Shown here: positions 1 through 62,202 of the stretch, in pieces
Layout: the number at the start of each line of letters is the position of its first letter
How positions within the stretch are numbered: the stretch's first letter is position 1
Assembly: GCA_963965975.1 (NCBI GenBank)
Contig: OZ014412.1
Coordinates: 1,056,501 to 1,120,500 of the forward strand
From: Xestospongia bergquistia
Lineage: Eukaryota > Porifera > Demospongiae > Haplosclerida > Petrosiidae
Direction of reading: 5' to 3'
Length of the DNA stretch: 64,000 nucleotides
The notes under the pieces: model-generated
Database searches by the model: none
What the model was told of the DNA's origin: nothing
What the model saw: the letters and a program-made list of their open reading frames with translations, nothing else
Position numbers and translations under genes: made by a program

Positions 1-1986
1 AGAAATATATAATGTATAATATCATATAATAATTATTTTACTGGTACTAAAGTAGGTCTCATCACTTGATGTCATGCCTGTAGCAATAAAATTATAAAAT
101 AAAGGCATACAATAGTGACTTACTTATAACAATAACAGTCTCAGTAGAAGATGGTAATAGTATAATTGATGTAATACCTAATACATTACTATAGAAAAAT
201 GTAAAATAGTACAATATAATACTTACTGGTAATAATAATAGTCTCAATAGGATCCGGAGATGGTAGTATTAAGATATATTCCAGTACTTGAGGGTACACA
301 ACAGATGGGTTAGTTATAATAGTACCATCTACTATATCATGAGCTGTCACAGTATAGTTACCACTAACTGGTAGACTTATATACTGGTATACTGTGCTCT
401 CCTCTATACTGGATTTACTCATATTAATAGACTTTATATTTCCTTTAGAAGGCTCTCTAAATATCACATGACATCCATCAGCAGTAGATCTCTCAGCAAA
501 CCTACACTCTACAACAACTGATCCATTATCAGAGTAGTACTGTAGAGTGAGTCCTTGAACATGATAGGTTGCTATGGTGACAAGGGATTAAGTTATTGAA
601 CACTATAAAATATATAAACCAACAAATTATTAACTTACAAAACATAATATAGTTTTGATCTTTTATGTTGTTAAATAAATCCATAATATATGTAGTAAAT
701 GTATAATTGAGAGATGGATGTAGTCCAGTTATATTATAATATATTGTTGTTTCATTAACATCAGTAACATTCTTAATATAAACATGATGATAGGTTGTTG
801 TCTCATTGTTAACATTATCCTTTGTTATACCATATATGGTACTATTACATAGGTGAGGAGAACAACTGATCTGGATCATAAGAAATAACGTTATATATTT
901 TTTTATTGGTCCTCACTTTTATAGCAAATTGTATTTGTATCATAGAACTGTTTAAATAGTTATTAAATTTTACAACATGGTCAAGTATATCAATAGTACA
1001 ATCTGATAACAGATAACATTAATATATTAAATAAATAGTTGTAATAATCTTACTTCCAGTATATTCCAGTAATAGTTGTAACAAGTGAACTGTATTGTTC
1101 AATAAAGGCTCCATCACTAGCAGTATAAATATCACAGACTGTGAGGTTACTAGGTAACTGATAGAATGTATTAGTTGTATTATCATCTACTATTACAGAA
1201 CCATCACTATCCTTAACAATAACATGATATCTTGTAATACTGCCTTGTGGAATATCATCAGAGTAAAATGATGGAGGAGACCACGTTAAGGAGATATTCT
1301 TAGTAAAATCCAAATCAAGGCAGTTGACAGGTGAAATACCTATAATGTTATATATAAATAATGATTTCTAATATATTTATAATAATAATCAAAATGTTGA
1401 ATTGATACATTCATTTTTAGATATTTTAATTTAGCCATTTATATCACTTATATTTTGTTAGTTACATAAAATAAGATGAACTGACATAGTCTAACTGTAC
1501 ACATCAAATCAAATATACAAGATGGACAAATTAATTAAATATCTATCAATTATTTTTTGTTGTACCTTTAACTGTTATAGTAGTTCCTTTCTGTTTTAAA
1601 TTAAAAGGATTATAACTGATCACAGTACATTGAACAGTTATCCCATCATTAATAGGTAGTGCTCTTATAGTTAGTACTGATGACCACACATCAACTGATA
1701 TATTGTTAGTAGTTACTGATATCTCTCTATCTTGATTACTGGGATCACTGACCGAATTACCATGTACTGTCCAAGACAATAAATCTCCTATACCCACACA
1801 GGTAAAGTTAGCCAATGTGTAAAGTGGAAAAGATAGTGATGAAGGAGTTAATGTGATGTTAGCTATAACATAATCTCATAATATATAATATAGACAAGAT
1901 ATAAACTTACCAGCTTCATTTACAAACCAAGGTTTAATGATAATTATTACAAAAATTGTTTTCAGAATGATTTCAGCTACTTCCAT
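1..1986 (-). CDS. Ig/FN3 receptor gene, 3' end beyond the window, possible frameshift
   Basis: Most distal array member; it continues past the left edge, so tail and membrane span are not seen. Exons: signal 1911-1986 (starts MEVAEIILKTIF), Ig 1566-1862 (FTC...W...[11 protein letters not shown]...C), FN3 1054-1339, second FN3-like unit 917-1002 plus 639-870, HVQG exon 227-571, stalk 124-177 and 42-77. The 54-nt and 36-nt stalk exons match the class B genes at 46490-48830 and 56225-58571, so a class B tail is expected. The FN3 exon is the most divergent of the array. Its last ~30 nt carry one base more than paralogues, so it leaves the donor in phase 2 while the next exon is phase 1. Reading on meets a stop within a few codons. 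Either the gene is broken or an unusual splice site is used. Confidence 0.75.
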
Positions 1987-2400
1987 TTTTACTGCAGTGA
2001 CTTCTGTATATGCTACTTACTACATGTATAGCACATAACATATGTTAGGTATATACATAATATTATAATTGTAGTATATATATTGTATATAGTATTATAT
2101 AGTATCATGTATAGTAGATATGTATAGTAGTATCATATATAGTACATATGTTATATATAGTATGATGTCTATAGCTATAATCACTACCTTATCATATCAT
2201 CAGTTTACATAGCCTACTTCATAACAGTTTCATAATAAATTTGTAAATCAATAACAATATATTATACAATAGAGTCGGTTATTAGTCTTTGTATATTAGA
2301 TCTCTCACTTCTCTGAGACTGTAGGTGGAAAGAATTAAGATATGTTTGTACATATGAGATATAGTATGAGTCACCATTATGACATATATATTGACATAAC

Positions 2401-4140
2401 TCTAGCAAAAAAAATCTGGTGATACTGGTAATGCTAATGGTTTAGGTCTACCCGTACAGATAGAAATTGAGTGTTAAGAACATGGATATTACTCTTCTTG
2501 TAGATAGACTTTAGGATTGCTGTCATGATCTAATGAATTATTTGCAAACAAAGTCTTTTCATGACTATCTTTTCTCTCTGATGACACAAGACTGGTATTA
2601 GGTATAAGGATTGGGTATGAGACTAACTATTTATACTAGATGAAGGTATATAATGATGTGACTGATCAGATAGGACTGGAGCGTGAATAATATAGGATCT
2701 CACTCTTCTTGTAGGTGGAGTGTGGAGTTTTAGTACTGTTGTGACAATGTAATGATAAGTCATCTTGTGAATGAAGTACCTTATGACTATCTCTCCTCTC
2801 TATAATGACATGAGACTTGTATTAGGATTGTGTATATATAAGACTGGTATCAGATCTAACACTAAACATAATAGAAATATCATTACATATACTAAGTATA
2901 TATAACTAGTTATTGTGGTAAGTCATTATTTTAAAGGAGCAGAGGTAACCTCATTGTTCTCTTTTCTTGTTACCATAGTGATTGATGAAGGAGGTGGGAC
3001 AAATGATGGAGATGGTGTAGATGGTGTTATATCACTGTTTATATTAGATGGAGATATTTCATGTTGTAACTGATCTTGTAGTTGACTATCACCTCCTTCA
3101 TATCTATAATACATATATTAACATGTAATGATCAGTTATAACTTACTCATTAGTAGGTTTACTTTGAAATGAATCAGTTCTCTTTAAAGTACCTAAATAT
3201 ATGATGTCATATATATGATGATGTCATTGTCACATGACTAGCTACCACTGAGTTACCAGTTCTTTCTCCTCTTCTTTTTAATACTATAATAATATAACTA
3301 GTACTAATACTAATAATATGATCACTATAGCTAGTGGAGAGAGAGAGAGATTATATTAATGTGTTATTATTTACATTACATACCAGTATCTATGTATGTA
3401 GTGTGTACTGATGTAATAAAACTCGTACTGTCTCATGATCCTGTTGTCATGGAAACTATAAAACAGACAAGTTCACTATATGACATATCACATGATTCTC
3501 ACATGACACAGATGTCTCTCTAATATTATTATACTTGTAGTAGAAACATTTGTTGGTGTAGATTGATTTGGAGGAAAGACTTGAAAGACTTATACTGGTG
3601 ATACCATTACAGCTGTACCAGACGAGTCTTTTTGTCCATTATTGTTAATATCAAATATATTAACATTATATATTCCAGTCTCTAGACTTGTAATACAACC
3701 AGTAACTATCCATTAGTATGACTAATATGTAGTGCAGTATATCCTGAACCTGATATCATCTTCATTTCAACAAAACACCCTCCATTATCAGACCCTATCA
3801 TAAATGTACATGATATACACAAGACCCCATTATCAGTAGATATAGAGGCACTCTGTACTCCATAACTACCTGTAGTGTAATATTTGGGAGAAAAAAGAGA
3901 GAGATAGTTATAATCTGATATTATAACTATATTACTGGTATTATAAGTATTACATGTAATGAGGTGTTGTTTTCTCTATTGTTACTATGGTTACAATAAC
4001 AATAGTCACAGGAGATAACAGTGATAGTACATAATGAACACAACTGATAATTAAACACACACAATATATATATATATCTAGTTCTATGAGATTGTTTTGA
4101 TTTGAGAGATAGATAATATTTAAATTATTTATTAAAATAA
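2401..4140 (-). pseudogene. Relic of a second receptor family (TDNG domain, different tail)
   Basis: Minus-strand exon remnants just 3' of the gene at 4599-6717. The exon at about 3600-3868 reads GVQSASISTDNG...CISCTF...GGCFVEM, a divergent cousin of the HVQG exon. Relative to the copy near 19206-19397 it has a 7-nt deletion (around 3713) that gives a stop. Tail remnants follow: a transmembrane-like stretch at about 3260-3340, out of frame with its basic end; TLKRTDSFQSKPTNE near 3148-3195; and a terminal exon at 2926-3114 with YRYEGGDSQLQDQ and a Ser/Pro-rich end. The frameshift and out-of-frame span mark it as dead. Alternative 3' exons of the neighbouring gene were considered, but the breaks argue against this. 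Confidence 0.65.
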
Positions 4141-4598: not shown

Positions 4599-6717
4599 TT
4601 ATATTATAATATTTTCATAGTCGGCAGTACATGTCCTACTAGGTTGTACTGTTATATATGATGGATTAGTCTTTAACTCCACTCTTCTACTTCTCATCTC
4701 TAATCTGTGTACTATGTAATGATCATAATATGAACTATATAAAGTTATAATATGAACATAGTTACCTTCATCATATGCAGGATTATGAGTAATAGTTTGT
4801 GGATTAATTTGATTAAGTGTCATGGACCGTTTCTTCTTCACAACAAGACAACTACCAACTATTACTGTCAATACTATTATTATAATTACAATAACACTAG
4901 ATAAGATCGATATAGAGTAAACATAGAGAGTCCCAATAGCTATATATAGCACAAATAATATATTTAACTCGTTCATTAAAACTTACAATCAGATGTTCTG
5001 CTAGTAGGCCTTGTGGATACCAAAGTATTAGGGACATTCACTGTAGCACCTTGTAAAATATAATAGAAAACAGTAAAAATATTCTACAAAATATTTATAG
5101 TACTTACTAGTCTCAGTAGGAGATGGTACTAGTAAGATATACTCCAGTACTTGAGGGTACATAACAGATGGGTTAGTTATAATAGTACCATCTACTATAT
5201 CATGAGCTGTCACAGTATAGTTACCACTAACTGGTAGACTTATATACTGGTATACTGTACTCTCCTCTATACTGGATTTAGTTATATTAATAGACTTCAC
5301 AGTTCCTTTAGAAGACTCTCTAAATACCACATGACATCCATCAGCAGTAGATCTCTCAGCAAACCTACACTCTACAACAACTGATCCATTATCAGAGTAG
5401 TACTGTAGAGTGAGTCCTTGAACATGATAGGTTGCTATGAGCAAAAGTCATTGATTAGATATTTTCATCTTACTTATTTTAACTCACTGAACATGATGTA
5501 AGTTTGTTTCTTTTTTTTCTTAATACTGTTTGTAATGTATATAGTAAAGTTGTACTTCATAAAAGAGATCAAATCAGTTATAGTATAATTGTATATGACC
5601 ATATTTTGGTCAATGTTTGTATTATTAATATTCAAATCAAAATAATTTGTTATTGTATTGTTGTGTTTAATATTTCCAATCAGGTAACTATTACATAGTC
5701 TAGGATCACTATCAACCTAAAAATTGTTACAAATTAGTAATGATATTTTGTTAATTCATTTACCATTATAATAAAAGTACTATTGAAGCTGTTAATAACT
5801 TCATCAAATATTACAAAATGATAGCATATGCTAATATTATAATCTATAGGTAATATTAAAAAACAAATAATCTTATAATTAATCTACTGACCTCCACTAT
5901 ATTCCTCTTGTATAGTAACATTACTAGAACTATATTCTCCACTATGAGCTATAACAGTAGCAGTGTAAATATGACAGACTGTGAGGTTATATAACTCATA
6001 AGATGTATCCTCAGTGATATCATTATATAGTAACTGGCCATGTTGGTTCTCTATATAAATATGATATGATAGTGGGTAGTTCTTAAATGGATGAGACCAG
6101 GTCAACCTGTTTGAAGAACTGGTAACATCAAATATGAACTGGAGGTTTTCAATGGGTATAATACCTGTATTGAATAATGAAAATAATAAACTGTGATTAT
6201 AGAAACTGTGTACCTTTAACTGTTAAAGTAGCTCCTCTTGATATAATATTAAAGTTATGACCAATTACATTACATCCAATACTTATTCCATCATTAATAG
6301 GTAGTGCTCTTATAGTTAGTACTGATGACCACACATCAAGTGATATATTGTTAGTAGTTACTGATATCTCTCTGTACTGTTTGATGGAGTCACTTAATGA
6401 ACTACCCTCTACTGTCCAAAATAGTACATTTGCCATACCCACACAGGTAAAGTTAGCCAGTGTGTAAAGTGACGCAGTAACTGATGAAGGAGCTATTGTG
6501 ATGTTATCTGTATAATATCAAATAATGACTTTATTTAGCTATACAATAAATAGAAATTGTATCATGTTATTATAATTATGTTATAGAGCACAAAAATTAA
6601 GGCAACTCGATCATCCATCTGTTTACCAGCAGCATCTGTATCTTTTAAAGTGACCAGAAGACTTCCTAATACAACTGTAACGAGCATTAGAACTTCTTGA
6701 CAGTCTTTGTCAGTCAT
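4599..6717 (-). CDS. Short-tail Ig/FN3 receptor, class A tail
   Basis: Single-pass type I membrane receptor of unknown ligand. Phase-consistent exons: signal 6627-6717 (MTDKDCQEVL, hydrophobic core), Ig 6214-6507, FN3 5892-6164, second FN3-like unit 5764-5843 and 5488-5716, HVQG exon 5108-5434, stalk 4987-5049, transmembrane plus first tail part 4766-4939, last exon 4599-4711. The model gives about 547 residues. The transmembrane stretch SSVIVIIIIVLTVIVGSCLV is followed by KKKR. The tail has NPAY, NPSY and a C-terminal YENIII. Unlike other class A genes it has no intron between the transmembrane and NPAY parts. The final 54-nt intron (4712-4765) is open in frame. Its signal peptide and second FN3-like exon match the gene at 60039-62202, marking a subgroup. 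Confidence 0.88.
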
Positions 6718-12500: not shown

Positions 12501-14606
12501 GTACTGTTGTAGTGGACTGAGTTGCATCATCATAGCTAATATAACATATAGGTTGTGAAGAATTTACTATTACTCTCTCTATTAGTAGAAATTTATAGTG
12601 AATGTGTTAGCATTATTGTAACATCTTATACCTTTATTTGATTTTTTCTTTCTCAGAGCAAATAGACATTTAAATTTCATGATCAATGGTATCAGTAGTA
12701 CTATCACAACTGATACAACAATAGCAAATATCCAAATGATTTGTGAAACTAAAAAAACATAAATAATTTGTACATTTAATATATAATACCATTATATGGT
12801 CCACTAGTAGGTTCTGTTGATGTCATTATATCAGTAGTACTAGTATTGTTAGTAATCAGAGAAACACTTTCTTTTATTGATGCAGTACCTATAATAGTAA
12901 ATTATAATACATAATAGTACAATAATTGTACAGTATTTACCAATAGTCTCATCTTTACTGTCAGTAGTACTAGTATTGTTAGTAATCAAAAAGACACTTT
13001 CTTTAATTGATGCTGTACCTATAATAGTAAATTATAATACATAATAGTACAATAATTTATTACCAGTAGTCTCATCTTTACTGTCAATAGTACTAGTCCC
13101 ATCAATAGATGGTAAGATATATTCCAGTACTTGAGGGTACACAACAGATGAGTTAGTTATAATAGTACCATCTACTATATCATGAGCTGTCACAGTATAG
13201 TTACCACTAACTGGTAGACTTATATACTGGGATACTGTACTCTCCTCTATACTGGATTTATTCATATTAATAGACTTCACAGTTCTTTTAGATAACTCTC
13301 TAAATATCACATGACATCCATCAGCTGTAGATCTCTCAGCAAACCTACACTCTACAACAACTGATCCATCATTAGAGTAGTACTGTAGAGCGAGTCCTTG
13401 AACATGATAGGTTGCTATGGTGACAGAGGAATGAAATCTTATATCAATCAAGAACATTGTACTTACTAAAATTTGACTCATTCTTAGCTTTAGATTTTTT
13501 TAAAGAGTCCACTACAGAAGGACAAAAGATATACCTTCGTTGAGGACCAATATTTGGTGTAGTATAGTTAACAGTCTCTGACTGACAATTTTCTGAAGAA
13601 CATGAAATATCTAGTTCCATTTCTGTTTCATCCAATTGTGATATATCTCTTGTAATAGCACGTAATGTACTATTACAGAGTGTAAAATGACTTAAAACCT
13701 ACATATATAAAATAAACTATAACAAACTAGTGTTTACTTACAATAACTCTGAATTGTACATTGCATGAATTGTGTTCATTAAAGATGACCTTGTGATCAG
13801 GCAAGACAGTAACATAATACTCTATAGTAGATAGTTAATGTGTAAATAGACAACCTATCAACATACCTCCACTAAATTCCTCTTGTATAGTAGCATTATT
13901 AGAACTATATTCTCCATTATGAGCTATAACAGTAGCAGTATAAATATCACAGACAGTGAGGTTATATAATTCATAAAATGTATCATTAGTGATATCATTA
14001 TATAGTAACTGGCCATGTTGGTTCTCTATATAAATGTGATATGATATTGGATAGTTCTTAAATGGATGAGACCAGGTCAACCAGCCTAATGAAGAATTGG
14101 TCTCGTTGAAAGTTAATTGGAGGTATTGTACTGGTGAGGTACCTGTCATTATTAAATAAATGAAAGTAATAAAATGTCATACTAGAAACTTTTACCTTCA
14201 ACTGTTAAAGTAGCACCTTCAGATGCAAAATCAAGATTTTGATCTAAAACAGTACATTCAACAGTTACTCCATCATTAATGGGTAGTGCTCTTATAGTTA
14301 GTACTGATGACCACACATCAACTGATATATTGTTAGTAGTTACTGATATCTCTCTGTCTTGATTACTGGGATCAGAGATTGAATTACCCCCTACTGACCA
14401 CTTCAGTGCACCTCCTTCACCCTCACAGGTAAAGTTAACCAGTGTGTAAAGTAAAGCAGACATTGATGAGGGAACAACTGTGATTACTGCTGTATTTAAA
14501 ATGATACAACTTACAAACTGTTATTAATATTTTATTATCATTTACCAGTAGTATCCGTCCCTTTCAAAGTTAAAAGAAGCACAGTCAAAAAACGAATTAG
14601 ATCCAT
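9543..14606 (-). CDS. Long-tail Ig/FN3 receptor
   Basis: Type I membrane receptor with a very long cytoplasmic tail. Exons: signal 14546-14606 (MDLIRFLTVLLLTLKG), Ig 14196-14489, FN3 13867-14142, second FN3-like unit 13742-13821 and 13467-13698, HVQG exon 13064-13414, two near-duplicate stalk exons 12941-13018 and 12790-12888, transmembrane 12632-12748 (WIFAIVVSVVIVLLIPLIM then KFK...RKKK), then tail exons 12484-12578, 12087-12215, 10927-11053, 10725-10783, 10618-10668, 10195-10281, 10048-10143, 9864-10002 and 9543-9808. Phases agree throughout and give about 878 residues. The tail is Ser/Thr/Glu-rich without a recognised domain. The exon at 10725-10783 (PPTTDVPAQHSD) aligns with [12 protein letters not shown] of the gene at 27665-34496, with His in place of its Tyr. 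Confidence 0.83.
12790..13018 (-). repeat. Duplicated stalk exon
   Basis: Two successive exons of the long-tail gene, with the intron next to each, are near copies. Both encode GTASIKESV.LITNNTSTTD followed by different ends, and both introns share ATAATAGTAAATTATAATAC. This is an exon-plus-intron tandem duplication that lengthens the Ser/Thr-rich juxtamembrane stalk. Confidence 0.75.
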
Positions 14607-16369: not shown

Positions 16370-18450
16370 TTACAATATAATTTCTTCATAATTGCATGTA
16401 TTTCTAGTTAACTGTACTGTTGTATATGATGGATTAGTCTCTAACTTTACTCCTCTTCTCCTCATCTCAAATCTGTGTACTATAGTTAATATAATTTAAT
16501 GACTAAACCCAGATTAAACTAATAATTAAACATACCTTCATTATATGCTGGATTATGACTTATAGCTAATTCATTAACGATTCCAAAGTGTTGTACAGAT
16601 AATAGATAATGACTTCTAGTTTCTCTTACTTTCAATCTGATGTTGTTGACTCCTCTTCTTAAAATAAGCAGCGATACTAACTCCAGCTATTATCACTATT
16701 ATAACTATTATAATAGTTATCCCAATGCTAGTAATGATCACCATGGCATCTGTGTAAAAAATAAAGAATGAATGTTGTTAAATTATTTTTACACGATGTC
16801 CTGAGAGAAGGTTCAGTCATGATGGTAGTTTCTCCAGATTTCACAGAACTAGTTATATCACCACTTGTTATATCACTTGATGTAGTACCTGGTCAGATAA
16901 AACAGTACAATGATCAATATACCACTTACTGATAGTAATAACAGTCTCAGTAGGATATAGTAGTAGCAAGATATACTCCAGTACTTGAGGGTATACAACA
17001 GATGGGTTAGTTATAATAGTACCATCTACTACATCATGAGCTGTCACAGTATAGTTACCACTAACTGGTAGACTTATATACTGGTATACTGTACTCTCCT
17101 CTATACTGGATTTACTCATATTAATAGACTTCACTGTTCTGTTAGAAGACTCTATAAATATCACATGACATCCATCAGCAGTAGATCTCTCAGCAAACCT
17201 ACACTCTACAACAACTGATCCATTATCGGAGTAGTACTGTAGAGTGAGTCCTTGGACATGATAAGTTGCTACAAAGAAGAAAATAGAATTTATGAATATT
17301 AACATACACTCACTGAAATATATTTCATTCTTTATTTTAGAGTTATTAAAATGATCAATTATATCAGCAATGAAGACATAGTTCAGTTGAGGACCAATAT
17401 TCAATACAGTATAATTAATAGTCACTGACTGATAATCTTTTGAAGAATATATGATCTTTTTACTAGAATTTTCTGTTTCTGTTCCATTCTGTTGTGATTC
17501 CTGATATCTTATAATACCCAGTAACGTACTAGTACAGAGTCTAGGATAACCTATAACCTATAATAACAAATATTTTTAGCATAAAATTAATACTCTGTTT
17601 TGACTTACAGTAACTTTAAATTCTATATTAAAGGAATCATTATGATCATTAAAGATGACCTCGTAATCAGGTAAGATTATACCATAGTATTCTTAATAGA
17701 ATAGTTATCGTGTAAAAAACAAGGTTTCAACATACCTCCAGTATATTCATCCCAAGTGGTAACATTTCTAGAACTATATTCTCCACTATGAGCTATAACA
17801 GTAGCAGTGTAAATATCACAGACTGTGAGGTTATATAACTCATAAGGTGTATCCTCAGTGATAACATTATACAGCAACTGGCCATTTTGATTCTCTATAT
17901 AAATGTAATATGATAGTGGATAGATCTTAAATGGGTGAGACCAGGTCAACCAAGAATTGTTGACATTAAAAATAAACTGGAGATTTTGTACTGGTATGAT
18001 ACCTATCATTGAATGAAATAATTAATAAACCCTATGTATAACTAACCTTTTATTGACAAAGTAGCTCCTTTGGAAGCAAAATCAAACTTCTGATTGAAAA
18101 CACGACATCCTACAATTATTCCATCATTAATAGGTAGTGCTCTTATAGTTAGTACTGATGACCACACATCAACTGATATATTGTTAGTAGTTACTGATAT
18201 CTCTCTGTCTTGATTACTGGGATCATCTAGTTTGTTACCCTGTACTGTCCAAAACAATACATCTCCTGTACCATTGCAGGTAAAGTTAGTCAGTGTGTAA
18301 AGTGAAGTGGTAACTGATGAAGGAGCTACTGTGATCACAACTTTAACATAACAGTACATATTTGCATAAGATACTGATACAATGAAACCTACCAGCTCCA
18401 TTCACAGATAAGGGTAAGGTCATCATCATCAACAAGGTGGCTTCAGCCAT
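16370..18450 (-). CDS. Short-tail Ig/FN3 receptor, class C tail with YEEI
   Basis: Complete type I receptor, about 546 residues. Exons: signal 18393-18450 (MAEATLLMMMTLPLS), Ig 18047-18340, FN3 17736-18002, second FN3-like unit 17609-17691 and 17314-17557, HVQG exon 16930-17268, stalk 16793-16888 (Ser/Thr-rich), transmembrane 16630-16749 (a long Ile/Val run ending AAYFKKR), a 30-nt tail exon 16536-16565 carrying NPAY, last exon 16370-16479 with NPSY and terminal YEEIIL. YEEI is the classical preferred ligand of Src-family SH2 domains, and NPxY is a PTB or endocytosis motif; their use here is inference. The last intron (16480-16535, 56 nt) contains stops, unlike its class A counterpart. Sequence upstream of the tail differs from classes A and B. 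Confidence 0.87.
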
Positions 18451-18752: not shown

Positions 18753-20440
18753 CCCAACTGAGCATATTCAATAGCATCTCTTTGTCTTTTGGAGAAAAAG
18801 TCTGTTAGACCAGTGTCAAAATAACTCTTACTTATCTACAATTAGGTACAAAGAGACATATATAAAATGACAAAAGAGATATAATACAAGTTACCAATAA
18901 TAGCTCTGTGAAGTAATCATCATTTGATGATACATTTTCATATGGAAGTGGTCCTTCTGGTAATACTGATAATGCCAACAGGTTATTGCTGCCCACACAG
19001 ATATGACTGACTTGGACTGAAGTTTCTCACTCTAATAGCTGGATAATTAAATATAATAATATAGGGTCAATCAATATGTCACATGACACTCACATGACAA
19101 TTGGTGTCTCTTTTATACTATCATACATTGTACTAGACACATCTGTAGGTGTAGATTGACATGATTGTGAGAGAGGGAGGACTTGTACTGGTGATATTAT
19201 TACAGCTATACTAGATGAGTCTTTCTGTCCATTATTGTTATTCCAGTCTCTAAACTTGTAATACAACCAGTAACTATATTCTCTCCATTATTATGACCAA
19301 TATGTAGTGTGGTATATCCTGAACCTGATATCATCTTCATTTCAACAAAACACCCTCCATTATCAGACCCTATCATAAATGTACATGATATACACAAGAC
19401 CCCATTATCAGTAGATATAGAGGCATTCTGTACTCCATAACTACCTGTAATATTTGGGAGAAAAAAGGAGATAGTTTGTAATCTGATATTATAACTATAT
19501 TGTGTATCATTTACTGGTATTAGTATTATATGTTACGTGTAATGAGATGTTTACCAGTATTGTTTTCTCTAGTGTTACTATGGTTACAATAACAATAGTC
19601 ACAATGAGATATCAGTAGATATAGAGGCACTCTGTACTCCATAACTACCTGTAGTGTAATATTTGGGGAAAAAAAAGAGAGAGATAGTTTGTAATCTGAT
19701 ATTATAAGTTAATAACTCTCTATATATGATTTACTTGTAGTAATATTAATATATTATATATTAATTATATATATTATATTTATTAATATATATTATATTA
19801 ATTTTAATATATTATATATGTGTAGTATTATATATACATTTGCACTAAGGGACCACTTCTGGCAAATTTGATTTGATTTATGAAAAAGGACCACTGTTAA
19901 AACACCTCAAAAACAATTTTGTATATATCCAGTTGTTATATATTCATAGCAACTATATATTTATAAAAATGTTTTTAATATGTTTTAACAGTGGTTCCTT
20001 TTTAGAAGTTTGCTATATGCATTGTTACTGGATATTAAGGATAATATAATACACAGTACAATTTCAAATAAATGATCAAGAACAAACTTCAATAAATCCA
20101 ATTCACTTCTTTGATCCAATAAAGGATGACTATAAACATCAGATATTAAAATATTTAAAATTATTATAATTATAGTACATAAAAATATGAGACATTGAGT
20201 TGTACTAATGGTATCAAGTCACAAATGTTTTGAAAGAAATGGTTCCTTATTGCAAATCAGGTCACCATTATTATGCATCATTTACTGGTATTAGTATTAT
20301 ATATGACATGTAATGAAATGTTACCAGTATTGTTTTCTCTAGTGTTACTATGGTTATAATAACAATAGTCACAATGAGATAACAGTGATAGTACATAATG
20401 AACACAACTGATAATTAAACACACACAATATATATATCTA
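18753..20440 (-). pseudogene. Relic second-family receptor with ITIM-like tail end
   Basis: Best-preserved copy of the dead second family. The TDNG domain exon at about 19200-19445 keeps both cysteines (CISCTF, GGCFVEM) and the GHNNGENIVTGC stretch. It then lacks about 25 nt present in other copies, which shifts the frame. Tail exons still read open: around 18900-18980 LPEGPLPYENVSSNDDYF, and 18753-18838 ending FFSKRQRDAIEYAQLGLK then stop. IEYAQL fits the ITIM consensus (I/V/L/S-x-Y-x-x-L/V). The upstream half of the gene is missing; its place is taken by a MITE-like element and then relic exons of another type. Confidence 0.6.
19850..20270. mobile_element. MITE-like element, copy 1
   Basis: Left end contains AGGGACCACTTCT and right end contains AGAAATGGTTCCTTATTGCA, approximate inverted repeats. 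Inside, GTTAAAACACCTCAAAAACA faces an inverted match in the second half. The ends match the element at 27345-27545, including the outer TGACCTGAT..GCAA motif. There is no coding capacity. An AT dinucleotide-rich tract (19740-19830) borders it. Confidence 0.5.
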
Positions 20441-46489: not shown

Positions 46490-48830
46490 TCACATTACAA
46501 TATTTTCATAGTCAGTACATGTCCTTTTAGTTTTTATAATTGAATATGATGGATTGCTCTCTAACTCTAATCTTCTTTTCATCTCAAGTATGTGCACTAT
46601 CTCATCAAAATAATAATTGAGTTGTTAAGATTAAAACATACCTTCTTTATAAGCAGGATTATGTTTGATAGCTTGTTCTTTCACTATAAACACAGAACAA
46701 AGATCTTAATTACTAGTTCCTTTATTCTTATTACCTCCAATCTCATGTTCTTGTCTTTTCCTCTTCTTCTTCCAAAACATAGTAAGAATAATAACTAAAA
46801 CAATTATAGTAACAATTATTACTAAACTACTGAATGCAGTACAAATTGTTACAAAAAGGAATGCAGTAGCTGTACACAAAGAAAATAAAAATAGATTAAT
46901 GACTAATATAACAAAACATACATGATGTTTTATGAGTAAGCTCCACAGTTGATGTCATTAATGATTTCTTTATTGATGTAAAATCTAGTAATATATAATG
47001 TATAATATCATATAATAATTTAGTTACTGATATTAATGAAAGTCTTATCACTTGGTGTCATACCTTTAGTAATAAAATTATAAAATAAACAATACAAATA
47101 AACAATTATTACTAATATGAGAGACTAGTAGTATAGTTATAAAATAAACAATACAATGATGACTTACTAATGGGAATAACAGTCTTAGTATGAGATGGTA
47201 GTAGTATAATTGATGTAATACCTAATACATTATTATAGAACAATGCAACCAATACAATATAATACTTACTGATAATATTAATAGTCTCAGTAGGAGATGG
47301 TAGTAGTAAGATATATTCCAGTACTTGAGGGTACACAACAGATGAGTTAGTTATAATAGTACCATCTACTATATCATGAGCTGTCACAGTATAGTTACCA
47401 CTAACTGGTAGACTTATATACTGATATACTGTACTCTCCTCTATACTGGATTTACTCATATTAATAGACTTCACAGTTCCTTTAGAAGACTCTCTAAATA
47501 TCACATGACATCCATCAGCAGTAGATTTTTTAGCAAACCTACACTCTACAACAACTGATCCATTATCAGAGTAGTACTGTAGAGTGAGTCCTTGAACATG
47601 ATAGGTTGCTATAGTGATAATTATAGAGAATTACATCAATCAAAAATACTATACTCACTAAATGACGACTCATTCTTTGTTTTAGAGTTATTAAAATAAT
47701 CCAGTATATCAGCAATGAAGATATAGTTTAGTTGAGGACTTATATTTGACACAGTATAATTAACAGTTACTGATTTATCTTCTAAAGAAGAATGAATATA
47801 TTTTTTATTGTGTTCAATTTTTGTTCCATTCAATATGTCCTCTCTTGTAATACCCAGTAATGTAATATTACAAAGTATAGGATAACCTGTAATCTTTAAT
47901 ATCACATAATACATCATGTAATGATAATATTATTAACTTACAATAACATGAAATTCTACATTAACGTAATTATTATATTCATTAAAAATAACATCATGAT
48001 CAGGTGAGATCATAACATAGTACTCTGTAATTTAGTTAAGTTCAAAATGAGAATGAAATATTAACATACCTCCACTATACTCCATTTGGATAGTAACATT
48101 ATTAGAACGATATTCTCCAATATGAGCCATAACAGTAGCAGTGTAAATATCACATATTGTGAGGTTATATAACTCATAAGATGTATCCTCAGTGATAATA
48201 TTATATAGTAACTGGCCATGTTGGTTCTCTATATAAATGTGATAGGATATCAGAACGTTTTCAGAAGAAAATAATGGAGGAGACCAGATCAACAAACTTG
48301 AACAACTGATAAAACTAAAATTGAGTTGAAGGTTTTCTACTTGTGTGATACCTGTTCATTGTAGAAGTGACAATGAGATATCAATTTCTAACCTTTAATT
48401 GTCAAATTAGCTCCTTTCAATATAATGTTAAAGCTCTGACTAACCACAGTACATCCAATAGTTATCCCATCATTAATAGGTAGTGCTCTTATAGTTAGTA
48501 CTGATAACCACACATCAACTGATATATTGTTAGTAGTTACTGATATCTCTCTGTCTTCATTACTGGGATCAGTAAACGAACTACCCTGTACTGTCCAATC
48601 CAGTACATCTCCTTCACCCTTACAAGTAAAGTTAGCCAGTGAGTAAAGTGAAGTGATAACTGATGAAGGAGCTACTGTGATCACAGCTGTAAATGAACAT
48701 ATGAATGTACATTGATATAATTATATATATTAAGTTAGTAACAATTAACTTACATACCAGCTTTATTTACAGAACAAGACAAGATAAGAATAGCCATTAT
48801 AAGAATGTTTCTTAAGATTGTTTCAGCCAT
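46490..48830 (-). CDS. Short-tail Ig/FN3 receptor, class B tail
   Basis: Complete type I receptor, about 580 residues. Exons: signal 48758-48830 ([20 protein letters not shown]), Ig 48393-48686, FN3 48070-48351, second FN3-like unit 47942-48024 and 47659-47893, HVQG exon 47270-47608, stalk exons 47168-47221, 47028-47063 and 46922-46984, transmembrane 46735-46869 (LVIIVTIIVLVIILTMFW then KKKRK), NPAY exon 46642-46683 and last exon 46490-46596 (NPSY, YENIVM). The last intron is only 45 nt and has stops. Duplicate of the gene at 56225-58571. It lacks that gene's 30-nt stalk exon, whose place is partly deleted. Its HVQG exon has CRFAKKSTADGC where most members have [12 protein letters not shown]. 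Confidence 0.9.
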
Positions 48831-49149: not shown

Positions 49150-50230
49150 CTATATTATTGAGGAGAATGACATTATATACTCTACTCTTAGACTTGTAAC
49201 ACATCCAGTAACTATATTCTCTCCATTATTACAACCAATATATAGTGCAGTATATCCTGAACCTGATATCATCATCATTTCAACATTATATACCCTCCAA
49301 TATCATATCACACTCATCTGTTATAACTTACTCATTAGTAGGTTTACTTTTGAAATAAATCAGTTTTCTTTAAAGTACCTAAATATATGATGTCATATAT
49401 ATATATGATGATGTCATTGTCACATGACTTACCGCTGAGTTCCTAGTTCTTTCTCCTCTTCTTTTTAATACTATAATACATTACCAATATAACTAGTATT
49501 ATTACTAACAATATGATCACTATACTAACTGCTATAACTAGTGGAGAGAGAGAGAGAGAGAGATTATATTAATGTGTTATTATTTACATTATATATCAGT
49601 ATCTCTATATGCAATGTGTACTGATGTAATAGATCTAGTATCATCTCCTGATGCAGTTTGTCATGGGAACTATAAAATAGAATAGTTCATCAGAAACATT
49701 ATCAGACCCTATCATAAATGTATATGATATACACAAGACCCATTATCAGTAGATATAGAGGTACTCTGTACTTCAGAACTACCTGCAGTGTAATATTTAG
49801 GAAAAAGAGAGATAGTTTATAATCTGATAATATAAGTTAATAACTCTATACAATGATTTACTGGTAATAATATTAGTATTACGTATACATAGAAATGTAT
49901 CAATAATGTTTTGTCTAGTGTTACTATAGTTACAATAACCACAATCACAAAGAGAAACTTTATAGTGAACACAACTGAAAATAAACTATATCAAGTCAAT
50001 TCACATTTAATTGTTGAATTTTCAATATATTATATTACATTACATGTAATGAGATGTTTACCAGTATTGTTTTCTCTAGTGTTACTATGGTTACAATAAC
50101 AATAGTCACAATGAGATAACAGTGATAGTACATAATGAACACAACTGATAATTAAACACACACAATATATATCTAGTTCTATGAGATTGTATTGATTTGA
50201 GAGGTAAACATTATTTAAATTGTTTATTTA
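49150..50230 (-). pseudogene. Relic second-family cassette, scrambled
   Basis: Pieces of the TDNG domain exon lie at 49190-49300 and 49690-49790, separated by transmembrane/tail pieces (49320-49550). One piece holds a good hydrophobic run (ILLVIILVILVMYYSIKKK) that meets a stop after KKKRRKN. The order is disturbed and the domain incomplete. The conserved 3'-flank block closes it at 50110-50230. Confidence 0.55.
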
Positions 50231-50689
50231 AAAAATCAATTGAGTTTTACATGTATTATAATAATCATTAGTACAATAATATGAATTATACCAACACATG
50301 TATTTGAAGCTAGTATTGATCATGTTACTAGCTCCACCCACAGTCTCATCCCATATAGTGATGTCATAGAAGTGTCACAGTCATTTATATGATCATCATA
50401 AACCATATTATTGTCATGTAATTTATATACTCTACTATCAATACTATATAATACTCTATTTTCATATATCAAGATATCATCATTATTATGATACATATAG
50501 AAAATCTACTTTACCTGTAGATCCATGCAGGTAAACTTGAAAGACATTTCTCATGACAATAACATCAAGATTACTGGTCGTAGTCAATAACTAACAGTGA
50601 CCAGTGAGGAATGAGGGTAAACTTAAAATAAGGAGGATATTTGTTGGTCACTAATAATATTTTAATTATTAATAATGTGATAATAATAT

Positions 50690-52021
50690 TTTCATAGTCA
50701 TCAGTACATGTCCTACTAGGTTGTACTGTTATATATGATGGATTAGTCTCTAACTCCACTCTTCTACTTCTCATCTCTAATCTATGTACTATGTAATGAT
50801 CATAATATGAACTATATAAAGTTATAATATGAACATAGTTACCTTCATCATATGCAGGATTATGAGTAATAGTTTGTTGATCAACTATAGAAAAAATCAC
50901 TTTAAATAATACATAATTTCTCACTCTCTCACCTCCAACTTCATGTAGTTGATGTTTCTTCTTCAAATATACAATACTACTGACTACTAGACATATCACT
51001 ATTATGACAATTACTACTACCACACTAACTGTACTAGTGGTAATGAGGAGAATAGTCTTGTTAGAAGCTGTAGAGATAACTTGAAAAACATATAAAAATA
51101 TTTAATACATGTTTATATGACACCCTTGAATTTAAAGAAGTAGTTGTACAAATGTAGTTATGTTCTTTTCATCACTACCTATCTTCTCATTGATGTAGTA
51201 ACTAATAAATTATAACAGAACAATAAAATACAATACAATATAATACTTACTAGTAATAATACATAATACTAGTCTCAGTAGGAGATGGTAGTAGCAAGAC
51301 ATATTCCAGCACTTGAGGGTACACAACAGATGGGTTAGTTATAATAGTACCATCTACTATATCATGAGCTGTCACAGTATAGTTACCACTAACTGGTAGA
51401 GTTATATACTGGTATACTCTACTCTCCTCTATACTGGATTTACTCATATTAATAGACTTCATAGCTCCTTTAGATGACTCTCTAAATATCACATGACATC
51501 CATCAGCAGTAGATGTCTTAGCAAACCTACACTCTACAACAACTGATCCATTATCAGAGTAGTACTGTAGAGTGAGTCCTTGGACATGGTAGGTTGCTAT
51601 GATGATAATAAAAATATTTTAGTATCAAAATAAAAATAGCTACTTATACTAAAATATGATTCATTCATTGTTTTAACATGATCAAAAGAATCCACTATGC
51701 CAGCAATAAAAAGACAATTCAATTGAGGACCAATGTTTGTTATGTTATAGTTAACAGTCATGTTGGTTCTCTATATAAATGTGATATGATAGTAGATAGT
51801 TCTTAAATGGATGAGACCAGGTTAACCATCCTGATAAAGTGCTAAGACTGAAAGTAAGATAGACATTTTCTACTGGTGTGATACCTGTGATTAAACAAAG
51901 AGATTACATTGATTATATACAATACATAAATTAACCTTGAACAGTTAAAGTAGTCCCTTTTGATACAAAATCAAAGTTTTGATCTAATACAGTACATCCA
52001 ATACTTATTCCATCATTAATA
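50690..52021 (-). pseudogene. Class A receptor pseudogene with internal deletion and 5' truncation
   Basis: Class A tail, transmembrane, stalk and HVQG exons (51260-51600) are present. Lesions: the second FN3-like exon (about 51650-51755, NYNITNIGPQLNCLF) is joined at about 51757 to the middle of an FN3 exon, deleting everything between. The Ig exon is cut at about 52021 after its last ~80 coding bases and joined to the segment duplicated from 8917 on. The terminal stop is lost, so the tail reads on about 28 residues past YENIII. The HVQG exon reads AKTSTADGC. Confidence 0.8.
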
Positions 52022-52644
52022 GAATAGAAATCTAGTTTCTGTTGTTGAATATCATAATTGACTGTAACTTCCAAGTACTACTATAATAAAATGTGTTATT
52101 ACAAAATCAGCATTCAAAAATTTTGTTTGAATGTCAAAAATTAATGTATTAATTTCTAGACTTGTAATAGTTGATGAGAAAAGAACCATGCTGTCTACAG
52201 AATAAAATGATTATTCCATATAACAATACTATGTGGTTTTAATACATTTATTTTGACAACCTCATATGTTTCATAATAAAATAAAAGATTGTTGATTGGT
52301 TGATTGGTTGATGATACTGAAGAGTTATTGTAATTAAATAACATTACAACATAATAATTGTTAATTAATTATTAAATTGACTAATGACCATCTTCCTTTG
52401 TACCAATGATACATAGTATTGTTAATGTTACTGGTCCTACAGTTCCATCATGTCATGTTATCATCACTGTTTATCTTATATATAGAATGAGGTCATAAAA
52501 TAGTTATCTATAAAAATCACTTGTTATAAACTCTTTTAGTCTTCATGAATGAGTGAAGATATTTTAGTTGACATAATAACAAATAAACAAATTATAAAAC
52601 TACAATAAAACTAAAGGGAATATAATAGACAATATAATAGAGAT

Positions 52645-52911: not shown

Positions 52912-53460
52912 TGCATTATATGCTCCCAATAAATACAACCCACTGTCCAGTATATAAAGTACACATTATACACTCCCAATGAATACAACCCACTGTCCAG
53001 TATATAAAGCACACAGTATATAAAGCACACGTTATACACTCCCAATGAATACAACCCACTGTCCAGTATATAAAGCAAACAACCCACTGTCCAGTATATA
53101 AAGCACACATTATACACTCCCAATGAATACAACCCACTGTCCAGTATATAAAGCACACGTTATACACTCCCAATGAATACAACCCACTGTCCAGTATATA
53201 AAGCACACATTATACACTCCCAATGAATACAACCCACTGTCCAGTATATAAAGCACACGTTATACACTCCCAATGAATACAACCCACTGTCCAGTATATA
53301 AAGCACACGTTATACACTCCCAATGAATACAACCCACTGTCCAGTATATAAAGTACACATTATACACTCCCAATGAATACAACCCACTGTCCAGTATATA
53401 AAGTACACATTATACACTCCCAATGAACACAACCCACTGTCCAGTACATTAAGCACATAT
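52912..53460. repeat. 50-bp minisatellite, about 11 copies
   Basis: Repeat unit: TATACACTCCCAATGAATAC, then AACCCACTGTCCAGTATATA, then AAGCACACGT. Units are nearly identical, with AAGCACACGT/AAGTACACAT variants, one shortened unit near 53075-53100 and one duplicated AAGCACACAGTATATA. The repetitive open frames (YILDSGLYSLGVYN type) follow from the repeat and are not genes. Confidence 0.95.
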
Positions 53461-56224: not shown

Positions 56225-58571
56225 TCACATTACAATATTTTCATAGTCAGTACATGTCCTTTTAGTTTTTATAATTGAATATGATGGATTGCTCTCTAAC
56301 TCTAATCTTCTTTTCATCTCAAATATGTGAACTATCTCATCGAAATAATAATTGAGTTGTTAAGATTAAAACATACCTTCTTCATAAGCAGGATTATGTT
56401 TGATAGCTTGTTCTTTCACTATAAACACAGGACAAAGATCTTAATTACTAGTATATTTATTCTTATTACCTGCAATCTCATGTTCTTGTTTTTTCCTCTT
56501 CTTCTTCCAAAACATAGTAAGAGCAATTACTAAAACAATTATAGCAACAATTATTACTAGACTACTGAGTGTAGTACAAGTAGTTACAAGAAGGAGAACA
56601 GTAGCTATACACAAAGAAAATAATAATAGATTATTGACTTACATATAACAAACATACATGATGTTTTATGAGTAAGCTCCACAGTTGATGTCATTAGTGA
56701 TTTCTTTATTGATGTAAAATCTAGTAATATATAATGTATAATATCATATAATAATTTAGTTACTGATATTAATGAAAGTCTTATCACTTGGTGTCACACC
56801 TTTAGTAATAAAATTTTAAAATAAACAATACAAATAAACAATTATTACTAATAGTAATAATAGTATCAGTATGAGATACTAGTAGTATAATTATAAAATA
56901 AACAATACAATGATGACTTACTAATGGGAATAACAGTCTTAATGTGAGATGGTAGTATTATAATTGATGTAATACCTAATACATTATTATAGAACAATGC
57001 AACCAATACAATATAATACTTACTGGTAATAATAATAGTCTCAGTAGGAGATGGTAGTAGTAAGATATATTCCAGTACATGAGGGTACACAACAGATGAG
57101 TTAGTTATAATAGTACCATCTACTATATCATGAGCTGTCACAGTATAGTTACCACTAACTGGTAGACTTATATACTGATATACTGTACTCTCCTCTATAC
57201 TGGATTTACTCACATTAATAAACTTCACAGTTCCTTTAGAAGACTCTCTAAATATCACATGACATCCATCAGCAGTAGATTTTTTAGCAAACCTACACTC
57301 TACAACAACTGATCCATTATCAGAGTAGTACTGTAGAGCGAGTCCTTGAACATGATAGGTTGCTATAGTGATAATTATAGAGAATTACATCAATCAAAAA
57401 TACTATACTCACTAAATGATGACTCATTCTTTGTTTTAGAGTTATTAAAATAATCCAGTATATCAGCAATGAAGATATAGTTTAGTTGAGGACTTATATT
57501 TGACACAGTATAATTAACAGTTACTGATTTATCTTCTAAAGAAGAATGAATATATTTTTTATTGTGTTCAGTTTTTGTTCCATTCAATGTGTCCTCTCTT
57601 GTAATACCCAGTAATGTAATATTACAAAGTATAGGATAACCTGTAATCTTTAATATCACATAACACATCATGTAATGATAATATTATTAACTTACAATAA
57701 CATGAAATTCTACATCAACAGAATTATTACATTCATTAAAGATAACATTATGATAAGGTAAGATCATAATATAGTACTCTGTAATTTAGTTAAGTTCAAA
57801 ATGAGAATGAAATTAACATACCTCCACTATACTCCCTTTGGATAGTAACATTACTAGAACTATATTCTCCACTGTGAGCTTTAACAGTAGCAGTGTAAAT
57901 ATCACAGATTGTGAGGTTATATAACTCATAAGATGTATCCTCAGTGATATCATTATATAGTAACTGGCCATGTCGGTTCTCTATATAAATTTTATATGAT
58001 ATTACAGATTTTTCAGAAAAAAATATTGGAGGAAACCAGGTCAACCAACTTGTAAGACTAAAATTGAGTTGAAGATTTTCTACTTGTGTGATACCTGTGC
58101 ATTGTATGAAGTGACCATAAGCTACAAAATTCTAACCTTTAATTGTCAAAGTAGCTCCTTCAGCTACAGGATTAGAGTTTTGACCAAAAACAATACATCC
58201 AATAGCTATCCCATCATTAATAGGTAGGGCTCTTATAGTTAGTACTGATGACCACACATCAACTGATATATTATTAGTAGTTACAGATATCTCTCTGTCT
58301 TGATTATTGGGATCAGTGAGTATATGACTTTCTACTGTCCATGACAGTTTAGTTCCCATACCCTCACAGGTAAAGTTAGCTAGTGTGTAAAGTGGAGTTA
58401 TAACTGATGAAGGAGCTACTGTAATGACAGCTGTAAATGAACATATGAGTTTACAGTGACATATGTACACATACTATTTTAGTAACACTTAACTTACATA
58501 CCAGCTTTATTTACAGAACAAGGCAAGACAATAGCCATAATGAGAATGTTTTCTAGGATGATTTCAGCCAT
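56225..58571 (-). CDS. Short-tail Ig/FN3 receptor, class B tail
   Basis: Complete type I receptor, about 586 residues, 13 exons: signal 58502-58571 ([19 protein letters not shown]), Ig 58137-58430, FN3 57822-58094, second FN3-like unit 57696-57778 and 57413-57647, HVQG exon 57024-57362, stalk exons 56922-56975, 56849-56878, 56764-56799 and 56658-56720, transmembrane 56470-56604 (LVIIVAIIVLVIALTMFW then KKKRKK), NPAY exon 56377-56418 and last exon 56225-56331 (NPSY, YENIVM). All phases agree. The 30-nt stalk exon (56849-56878) is the least certain. Its Ig exon differs from its duplicate at 46490-48830 in the two flanks (GTKLSWTVESHILTD; VFGQNSNPVAEG) but not in the core. Confidence 0.9.
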
Positions 58572-58849: not shown

Positions 58850-59940
58850 TCAGATGATGTGCGAGAAATAATACAAGTTACCATAATAACACTTTGAGGA
58901 TGATCAAAGTAGTCATCATTTGATGATATCTCTTCATATGGAGGTGGTCCTTCTGGTAATACTGGTAATGCTAACAGGTTTATTGTTGTCCATGCAAATA
59001 GGACTGAAGGTGGTTTAACTGGATAGTTAAGTAATTAATTAAAGATCCTATATTATTAATAATATAGGATCTTACTCTTCTAGTTGGTATGGAGATTTAG
59101 GACAATGTGACAATGAGTCATCTTACAGATGAATGTAGAGAGAGATTACATTAATATGTTATTATTTACATTACATACCAGTATCTCTGTATGATGTAAT
59201 AGAACTAATCCCATCTTCTGATCCAGTTGTCATGGGAACTATAAAACTGACAAGTTCATCACATAACAAATCACATGACACTCACATGACAGAGTTGGAT
59301 TTGGTGTCTATTTAATACTGTCATACATTGCACTAGACACATCTGTAGGTGTAGAGGGAAGGAGGGAAGACTTGTACTGGTGATATTATTACAGCTGTAC
59401 CAGATGAGTCTTTCTGTCCACTATTGTTAATATCAAATATATTAATATCATATATTCCAGTCTCTAGACTTGTAATACAACCAGTAACTATATTCTCTCC
59501 ATTTTAATGACCAATATATATAGTGCAGTATATCCTGAACCTGATATCATCTTCATTTCAACAAAACATCCTCCATTATCAGACCCTATCATAAATGTAC
59601 ATGATATACACAAGACCCCACTATCAGTAAATATAGAGTCATTCTGTACTCCATAACTACCTGTAGTGTAATATTTGGGGGAAAAAAGAGAGAGATAGTT
59701 ATAATCTGATATTATAACTATATTAGTGGTATTGTAAGTATTATATGTAGTGAGGTGTTGTTTTCTCTAGTGTTACTATGGTTACAATAACAATAGTCAC
59801 AATGAGATAACAGTGATAGTACATAATGAACACAACTGATAATTGAACACACACACAATATATATATCTAGTTCTATGAGATTGTTTTGATTTGATAGAT
59901 AAACAATATTTATATTGTTAATAATCAATTGAGTTTTACA
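58850..59940 (-). pseudogene. Relic second-family cassette with PPPYEEI tail exon
   Basis: The TDNG domain exon at about 59400-59670 is shifted in frame near 59505-59515 (reads into a stop at the GENIVTG position). 59160-59230 holds a juxtamembrane piece. 58905-59010 is an open tail stretch reading LPEGPPPYEEISSNDDYFD. PPPY fits a WW-domain ligand and YEEI an SH2 ligand. The conserved 3'-flank block is at 59800-59940. The frame shift makes the copy non-functional. Confidence 0.6.
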
Positions 59941-60038
59941 TGTATTGTAATAATCATTAGTAGTACAATAATATAAATTATATCAACACATATATTTCAA
60001 GCTAGTATTGATGTTGTTAATTATTAATAATGTGATAA

Positions 60039-62202
60039 TTATATTATAATATTTTCATAGTCATCAGTACATGTCCTACTAGGTTGTACTGTTATATATG
60101 ATGGATTACTCTCTAACTCCACTCTTCTACTTCTCATCTCTAATCTGTGTACTATGTAATGATCATAATATGAACTATATAGAGTTATAATATGAACATA
60201 ATTACCTTCATCATATGCAGGATTATGAGTAATAGTTTGTTGATCAGCTATAGAAGAAAACACTTAAAATAATAAATAATTTCTCACTCTCTTACCTCCA
60301 ACTTCATGTAGTTGATGTTTCTTCTTCAAATATACAATACTACTGACTACTAGACATATCACTATTATGACAATTACTACTACCACACTAACTGTACTAG
60401 TAGTAATGATGAGAATTGTCTTGTTAGAAGCTGTAGAGATAACTTGATAATTATACAAAAATTTAACGCATACTTACATGACACCCTTGAATTTAAAGAA
60501 GATTCAAGAAGTTCTACAGATGTAGTTATTTTCTTGTCATCACTGCCGCCTCTCTTCTCAATTAATTTAGTACCTAATAAATTATCATAGAACAGTAAAA
60601 TACAATATAATACTTACTAGTAATAACAACAGTCTCAGTAGGAGATGGTAGTAGTAAGATATATTCCAGTACTTGAGAGTACACAACAGATGGGTTAGTT
60701 ATAATAGTACCATCTACTATATCATAAGCTATCACAGTATAGTTACCACTAACTGGTAGACTTATATACTGGTATACTGTACTCTCCTCTATACTAGATT
60801 TACTCATATTAATAGACTTCACAGTTCCTTTAGAAGACTCTCTAAATATCACATGACATCCATCAGCAGTAGATCTCTCAGCAAACCTACACTCTACAAC
60901 AACTGATCCATTATTAGAGTAGTACTGTAGAGTGAGTCCTTGAACATGATAGGTTGCTATAAGAAGAAAAGTCAGCACAATAAAATTATTTTATAATGCT
61001 TTAATTAACTTACAGAATATGTTATGATCTTGATTTTTAATTTTGTAAAGACTATTTATAATGTATACAGTAAAATTGAAAATCATAAAAGGACTTAGAT
61101 CAGCTATAGTATAATAAGTGACCAAATCGTCTTTACTATCATTAACATTGATAGTGAGAAAATTATAAATCAATTTCTCATTAATTTTTACAAACAGTAC
61201 ACAATTACAAAGTTTAGGATGACCTTTCATCTATAAAGTAATACACACAATATAATATCAACATTTAATTCATTTACCATTATACTAAATGTCACATTAA
61301 AATTGTTCTCCCTTACATCAAATATTACAGTATGATTCTGTATGCCAATAGTGTAATCTACATGGAAATTGAACTAATGACCTTTAGTAATTCTACTGAC
61401 CTCCAGTATATTCCTCTTGTATAGTAACATTACTAGAACTATATTCTCCACTATGAGCTATAACAGTAGCAATGTAAATATCACAGACTGTGATGTTATA
61501 TAACTCATAAGATGTATCATTAGTGATATCATTATATAGTAACTGGCCATATGCATGTTGGTTCTCTATATAAATGTGATATGATAGTGGATAGTTCTTA
61601 AATGGATGAGACCAGGTCAACCAGCCTGATAAAGTGGTAAGACTAAAAGTAAGATAGACATTTTCAACTGGTGTGATACCTGTGATTAAACAAAGAGATG
61701 ACATTGATTATAAATACAGAAATTAACCATGAACAGTTAAAGTAGCTCCTTTTGATACAAAGTCAAAGTTTTGACCAAACACAGCACATCCAACGCCTAC
61801 CCCATCATTAATAGGTAGTGCTCTTATAGTTAGTACTGATGACCACACATCAACTGATATATTGTTAGTAGTTACTGATATCTCTCTGTCTTGATTACTG
61901 GGATCAATAAGTGGATTATTCTGTACTGTCCAAAACAAATCACTACCTGTACCCTCACAGGTAAAGTTAACCAGTGTGTAAAGTGAAGTGTTGATTGATA
62001 AAGGAGCTACTGTGATTATTGCTGTATATATAAAATTTGTATATGAAAAATGAATATAAAATTAAATACTGAGTTTGTTAGACATCAGAGCATACAATAT
62101 TGTTATTTAATCATTACCAACAGCATCTGTATCTCTACAAGTGAGAACAAGACTTCCTAATGCAATTATAACGAGTATTAGTTGCCAGTCTTTGTCAGTC
62201 AT
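60039..62202 (-). CDS. Short-tail Ig/FN3 receptor, class A tail
   Basis: Complete type I receptor, 559 residues by the model. Exons: signal 62118-62202 (MTDKDWQLILVIIALGSLVL), Ig 61728-62021, FN3 61401-61679, second FN3-like unit 61278-61357 and 61014-61230, HVQG exon 60618-60956, stalk 60478-60573, transmembrane 60296-60430 (VSVVVVIVIIVICLVV then YLKKKH), NPAY exon 60206-60247 (42 nt) and last exon 60039-60151. Introns in the 3' half are 44, 47, 48 and 54 nt. The tail is NPAY-x17-NPSY-x12-YENI. The signal peptide and second FN3-like exon are of the type in the gene at 4599-6717, while transmembrane and tail match the gene at 42735-44892, so the gene is a mosaic of two subgroups. The FN3 exon has a two-codon insertion (QHAYGQ). 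Confidence 0.92.

Follow-up and report, generated by a model that had tools for sequence, protein, structure and literature searches.

A tandem family of mosaic immunoglobulin/fibronectin-type receptors, with a possible role in recognition, in the sponge Xestospongia bergquistia

To our knowledge, the genes by which sponges discriminate self from non-self are not settled. Here, we analyze a 64,000-nucleotide stretch of the genome of the sponge Xestospongia bergquistia (C2:1,056,501-1,120,500; hereafter the window) that carries a tandem array of genes for putative type I receptors with immunoglobulin (Ig) and fibronectin type III (FN3) domains. On balance, we favor the view that these genes belong to a large recombining multigene family whose copies exchange segments, most likely in the service of recognizing self/non-self or microbes.

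Several described systems resemble this locus in part. The Alr complex of Hydractinia comprises clustered type I receptors of the Ig superfamily, together with pseudogenes and diversified tails, and clustered type I receptors with Ig domains are likewise what we find here. Compared by description, however, the sponge locus differs in combining an I-set Ig domain with FN3-type domains, in its approximately 90 copies, in the homogenized state of its membrane-proximal domain, and in having no known link to fusion. The vertebrate KIR/LILR arrays are also tandem Ig receptors with copy turnover and shuffling of domains and tails, but the sponge receptors have FN3-type domains and NPxY-type motifs, and there are no short-tailed forms with a charged transmembrane (TM) segment among TM types A, B, and long. 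Aggregation factors are secreted and built from other domains, whereas the present family, again compared by description, has TM exons and would encode receptors of the membrane; the two have in common that the factors, which are mentioned in the available text of PMC5450542, are candidate self/non-self molecules of sponges. Sponges also have Ig receptor tyrosine kinases and Ig-TIR receptors (available portions of PMC12018476 and PMC8242945), which are surface receptors with Ig domains, but in the two tails scanned here, tail A and the long tail, there was no Pfam match to a kinase or TIR domain. Sea urchin Sp185/333, as presented in the available part of PMC5103432, is a clustered, repeat-rich, and fast-diversifying immune gene family, but it is a different protein family, and the genes considered here would specify membrane-bound receptors of Ig and FN3 fold.

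The words immunoglobulin, fibronectin, and receptor are absent from the available main text of a grafting transcriptome study of Amphimedon queenslandica (PMC5450542), and the available part of PMC8242945 places immunoglobulin-domain genes among those regulated by microbial molecules in three sponges; neither bears directly on the C2 family. Among the titles and abstract openings of the literature searched, none describes this receptor family, which is no proof of absence.

Tandem arrays, homogenized islands, and mosaic units

The family is organized as tandem arrays of phase-1 cassette exons, with homogenized islands, mosaic units, and several tails per ectodomain type. A unit would consist of a signal peptide, an I-set Ig domain, an FN3 domain (FN1), a variable domain (FN2), an FN3-like domain (HVQG), a TM segment, and a cytoplasmic tail, and clustering of open frames returned Ig, FN1, FN2, HVQG, TM, and tail as recurrent exon families of the minus strand. 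The original prediction of a one-strand tandem array of type I Ig/FN3 receptors was borne out, every unit in the window being on the minus strand, although the extent assigned to it (positions 1-62202 of the window) proved too narrow; units run on in both directions over a cluster of about 510 kb (C2:904,958-1,413,741; cluster 1). In the one assembly searched (146.46 Mb in 21 contigs), the HVQG exon query found at least 130 matches. At least 95 of these span at least 95 of the 101 residues, and 89 of the 95 lack a stop codon. By place, 52 of them lie at C2:0.90-1.42 Mb and 34 at C2:2.10-2.43 Mb (cluster 2), and the other nine are at C2:6.55-6.58 Mb (five), C7 (two), C4 (one), and C2:5.67 Mb (one). 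The Ig exon query gave at least 126 matches, mostly at the same places. As 150 of 259 HVQG candidates and 150 of 188 Ig candidates were scored, these counts are lower bounds.

Neighboring exons of the same genes span an approximately 9-fold range of silent divergence, a clear exon-segment mosaicism. Pooled values were 0.90 for FN2 (28 copies), 0.35 for Ig (26 copies), 0.35 for FN1 (27 copies), and 0.10 for HVQG (29 copies). Within the Ig exon, codons 49 to 72 form an island in which the proportion of silent differences falls to 0.02-0.08, against some 0.35-0.47 on either side, and permutation of 4-fold sites supported this island (2/5000). An example in the window, REISV...INNG, lies at 44525-44611 on the minus strand and corresponds in the structural model to the strands behind the helix and the following loop. 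The dips are wider in FN1 and HVQG (an example of the homogenized HVQG stretch is at 47340-47576, minus strand), and FN2 shows none. The 40 bases upstream of HVQG are practically unalignable (p 0.58; n = 30 copies), and the homogeneity therefore stops abruptly at that border. Of 118 candidates for HVQG DNA, the 40 that were scored matched the query copy at 95-100% identity; they include copies in cluster 2 and at C2:5.67 Mb.

The segments of a unit also disagree in their genealogy. The correlation between island and flank distances was -0.04 for Ig and -0.13 for HVQG, each lower than in all 200 simulations on the same tree, and that for FN1 was lower than in all but 3 of 200. Incompatible site pairs in HVQG (39/231) exceeded the simulated maximum. 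Ig flank, FN1 flank, and FN2 were mutually incongruent, with r of about 0.3 where simulated means were near 0.9 (0/100 for each comparison). Individual copies illustrate the point: those at C2:1131377 and 1030235 have 3/213 differences in the Ig flank and 10/246, near the family mean, in the HVQG island, and between the units at 57.4 and 47.6 kb of the window there are 3/255 differences in FN2 and 2/246 in the HVQG island but 47/216 in the Ig flank. A single FN2 type occurs in six units with three tails (C2:1113866, B; 1104112, B; 1100161, A; 1089780, long; 1131377, long; 1030235, B), and a copy on C7 shares the Ig island and the HVQG stretch (p 0.06 for each) but neither FN1 nor FN2 (p 0.43 for FN2).

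Taken together, the contrast in exon divergence, the incongruent homogenized stretches, and the occurrence of one FN2 type with three tails point to ectopic recombination, and exchange among copies would seem to continue where homology has been kept. Copies would swap segments through unequal crossover or gene conversion between ectopic sites, and the nearly identical stretches of HVQG and of the Ig core would be the likely source of homology; it is perhaps as recombination joints that the conserved exon islands act. Variable outer faces and tails could then be reassorted with the reading frame preserved.

Units, domains, and tails

The window contains 12 near-full-length HVQG exons, one of them with a stop (37280-36951), and a fragment (41346-41468), as well as 12 Ig exons in 13 open reading frames, one exon being divided by a stop and one partial. 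Ig, FN1, FN2, and HVQG are all open in 10 of the 11 units whose HVQG is open, the ectodomain exons have borders that read as phase 1, and a phase-1 signal-peptide exon lies upstream in nine of those 10; one was looked for in the unit at 17-18 kb and none was found. At the exon level, the “at least nine” intact receptors originally predicted are thus present. Under a strict splice model (signal peptide-Ig-FN1-FN2-HVQG, all junctions phase 1, no stop, generic donor score) the number is five of the 11 units in the window; across a contiguous 264 kb (C2:896,501-1,160,500), it is 14 of 29. The FN2 acceptor accounts for 10 of the 15 failures, which may reflect decay or the choice of alignment start. 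When the donor matrix was trained on the Ig and FN1 exons alone, 0 of 29 units passed, so the generic score was used instead.

The five units that pass the strict ectodomain model are all on the minus strand, as are the other units, the relics, and the GSYG element given below. Unit 1 (60042-62202) reads signal peptide-Ig-FN1-FN2-HVQG-TM-tail A; units 2 (56225-58571) and 3 (46490-48830) have the full ectodomain, TM, and tail B; unit 4 (42738-44892) has the same with tail A; and unit 5 (31804-34496) has the same with a long tail of DPYHIS type in predicted exons. Four open ectodomain exons are also found in five units that do not pass or lack a detected signal peptide. Unit 6 (24032-25940), which has a signal peptide and an unrelated TM, unit 8 (13113-14606), with a signal peptide, and unit 9 (4602-6717), with a signal peptide and tail A after another TM exon, fail at the FN2 acceptor. 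Unit 10 (255-1986), with a signal peptide, fails at the FN1 and FN2 splice sites, and its tail B lies just beyond the window. Unit 7 (16373-18338) is the one in which no signal peptide was found; it carries variant tail C (NPAY, NPSY, NYEEI). The pseudogenes and turnover of the original prediction are borne out, with relics at 52.1-50.7, 41.5-40.5, 37.4-36.4, and 23.1-22.8 kb. They comprise truncated Ig, FN1, and FN2 with an open HVQG, TM, and tail A (50679-52077); an HVQG fragment, a TM containing stops, and tail B exons (40548-41468); a partial FN2, an HVQG containing a stop, TM, and tail A (36365-37431); and an Ig exon that stands alone and contains an in-frame stop (22786-23073). We judged it unlikely that an assembly artifact lies behind the array; among the repeats listed for the window (hits of at least 350 bp, two simple-repeat stretches excluded), the longest spans 4,046 bp and has an identity of 90.7%.

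The Ig exon was modeled as an I-set domain, with its beta-sandwich, at a predicted local distance difference test score (pLDDT) of 94, and the closest structures were the I-set domains of LAR, contactin, titin, and DSCAM. Its sequence profile retrieved only weak antibody light chain matches among solved structures (best E value, 0.12). In this model, the helix is followed by two strands (residues 47-55 and 58-66) and then a loop, and the homogenized island covers these strands and the loop; the other strands are variable and may form a binding face. The FN1 query scored above the Pfam fn3 cut-off, whereas FN1 of one spliced unit scored below it, and Ig, FN2, and HVQG had no match above the Pfam cut-off. 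The HVQG domain has no Pfam family, and its model, of moderate confidence (pLDDT 75.8), is an FN3-like sandwich of seven strands. FN3 membership is found by fold or by Pfam for FN1 and HVQG; even so, FN3 domains ranked equal to sandwich domains of glycoside hydrolases in structural comparison of the HVQG model, and its profile gave no convincing relative among solved structures (best E value, 1.3).

Downstream of HVQG, most units have a TM segment followed by basic residues. Tail A occurs at 60, 50, 42, and 36 kb and, with a different TM exon, at 4.8 kb; tail B occurs at 56, 46, and 40 kb as well as just outside the window; variant tail C is at 16 kb and the long tail at 33 kb, with other, putative tails at 24 and 13 kb. 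The originally predicted combination of similar ectodomains and dissimilar tails is seen in that there are several tails (A, B, C, and long), but the cytoplasmic exons at the ends of A, B, and C are homologous and have the common motifs NPAY-NPSY-YE[NE]I, and these three tails thus differ less than had been thought. In tail B as read here, the stops fall inside a short predicted intron. The 264 kb contain 15 sites with tail exons of the NPSY and YE[NE]I type, and the two clusters and C7 hold many others; a 16th motif row, at 986387, was dropped as a chance match. For the DPYHIS-type long tail, cluster 1 has two matches and cluster 2 five weaker ones; an eighth row, a neighboring exon of the query's own gene, was not counted. 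In a paralogue on C12, read as open frames alone, a TM segment is followed by NPAY and YEQI. Gene finding for the tails gave doubtful models for most units and, when a TM was required, none for 19 of 29; we used it only for recurring tails. Exons of the tail A type are also present at C2:793-830 kb, with no HVQG or Ig among the matches listed nearby, perhaps because the same tail is there joined to another ectodomain.

The GSYG element (3709-3885; further copies at 19284-19448, 42192-42368, and 59515-59676, with pieces at 49222-49798) is a relative of the HVQG domain. Distant relatives of the HVQG/GSYG domain (26-32% identity) number 22 in C2:3.00-4.03 Mb, of which 20 are on the plus strand, and a second search added two more (C2:2.88-4.03 Mb overall); one of these, L051, has the same C-x-F...GC core and then a TM frame. 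They probably constitute a sister receptor array. An additional family of glycoprotein-like open frames is scattered through cluster 1 at C2:910-972 kb (L028, L030, L031, L033, and L034), one with an fn3 match slightly under the cut-off, and retroelement-like open frames, recognized by eye and one of them of 1183 codons, lie at C2:1,050.9-1,053.8 kb (L042) and 1,150.5-1,154.4 kb (L046). In the window, a TAATGG satellite of about 428 copies (29247-31813) begins beside the predicted end of the long tail in the 33-kb unit, and a minisatellite of 11 copies of a 50-base repeat occupies 52914-53457. Dense arrays of FN3 exons are found at C5:0.27-0.77 Mb, C7:3.17-3.33 Mb, C8:1.2 Mb, and C10:1.0 and 5.0 Mb; the FN3 repeats at C5:326-336 kb are highly alike and spaced at about 450 bases. 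Elsewhere, C9:1.502-1.523 Mb (L050) holds many tandem papain-like exons that match sponge silicatein, which makes a demosponge origin of the genome likely on sequence grounds as well; a literature search for a silicatein motif gave no result. The top PDB match of one exon pair was silicatein alpha (E value, 1.1e-29; next, 1.4e-26), but this copy has Cys at the expected active site, where silicatein has Ser, and is silicatein-like rather than a proven silicatein.

Alternative explanations and significance

Several observations weigh against exchange and selection for recognition as we have described them. FN1 island distances track the FN1 flank (r 0.57), there was no excess of incompatible sites in the FN1 island (14/300) or the Ig island (3/15, within the simulated range), and permutation of 4-fold sites did not support a within-exon dip in FN1 (1034/5000) or HVQG (539/5000). 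The simulations presume a clock-like tree without selection. Moreover, the ratio of nonsynonymous to synonymous divergence (dN/dS) exceeded 1 in no segment tested (0.35-0.79; maximum, 0.97 in nine close Ig-flank pairs), and diversifying selection is therefore not supported. The islands might instead owe their conservation to functional constraint on DNA or protein, as they are conserved at silent and replacement sites alike, and the FN1 island is slightly closer to the C12 paralogue than is its flank (50% versus 45% identical, a small difference that also speaks against exchange). The Ig and HVQG islands, however, are no better kept in that paralogue than their flanks (Ig, 42% for island and 46% for flank, compared with 92% and 57% within the family; HVQG, 36% and 40%), their distances depart from the genealogy of the units, and island dN/dS is 0.46 for Ig, 0.79 for FN1, and 0.76 for HVQG. 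Given the C12 comparison and these ratios, we hold constraint to be an improbable cause.

A more serious competitor, although one that we find less convincing than a recombining recognition family, is an ordinary lineage-specific expansion of adhesion- or guidance-type Ig-FN3 receptors, evolving by birth and death with incidental gene conversion and having no self/non-self or immune role. Such receptors would fit the nearest structures of the Ig model (the I-set domains named above), the dN/dS values, which never exceed 1, and the presence of further FN3 arrays in the same genome; in our judgment, however, a family of 95 or more copies with relics, swapped tails, and pronounced mosaicism would be unusual for developmental receptors. 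The label “paired” attached to these receptors in the original prediction fared worse. Activating and inhibitory receptors with like ectodomains and opposed signaling tails could account for a single FN2 type bearing tails A, B, and long, and for the alternation of A and B over 60-40 kb, but A, B, and C are homologous and share the same three tyrosine motifs, and TM types A, B, and long, the three types inspected, contain no charged residue. We regard paired receptors as very unlikely.

For the recombining receptor family that we prefer, recognition of self/non-self or microbes is the most likely role, allorecognition being one form of it, and an allorecognition or immune role is plausible. 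NPxY and YE[NE]I tyrosine motifs recruit PTB- and SH2-type adaptors. The outer Ig/FN3 part would bind ligand, and the tail tyrosines in these motifs would presumably recruit such adaptors; recognition and tyrosine signaling are suggested because of the architecture and evolution of the family. More speculatively, the C2 complex could be a sponge allorecognition/immune region in which Ig-core and HVQG joints reassort variable ectodomain segments with signaling tails in the germ line, a proposal we put forward only tentatively. If true, this would place a cassette-shuffling means of diversifying receptors close to the root of the animal tree. What the sequence defines is a candidate region of approximately 90 receptors, with a proposed route by which they may diversify.

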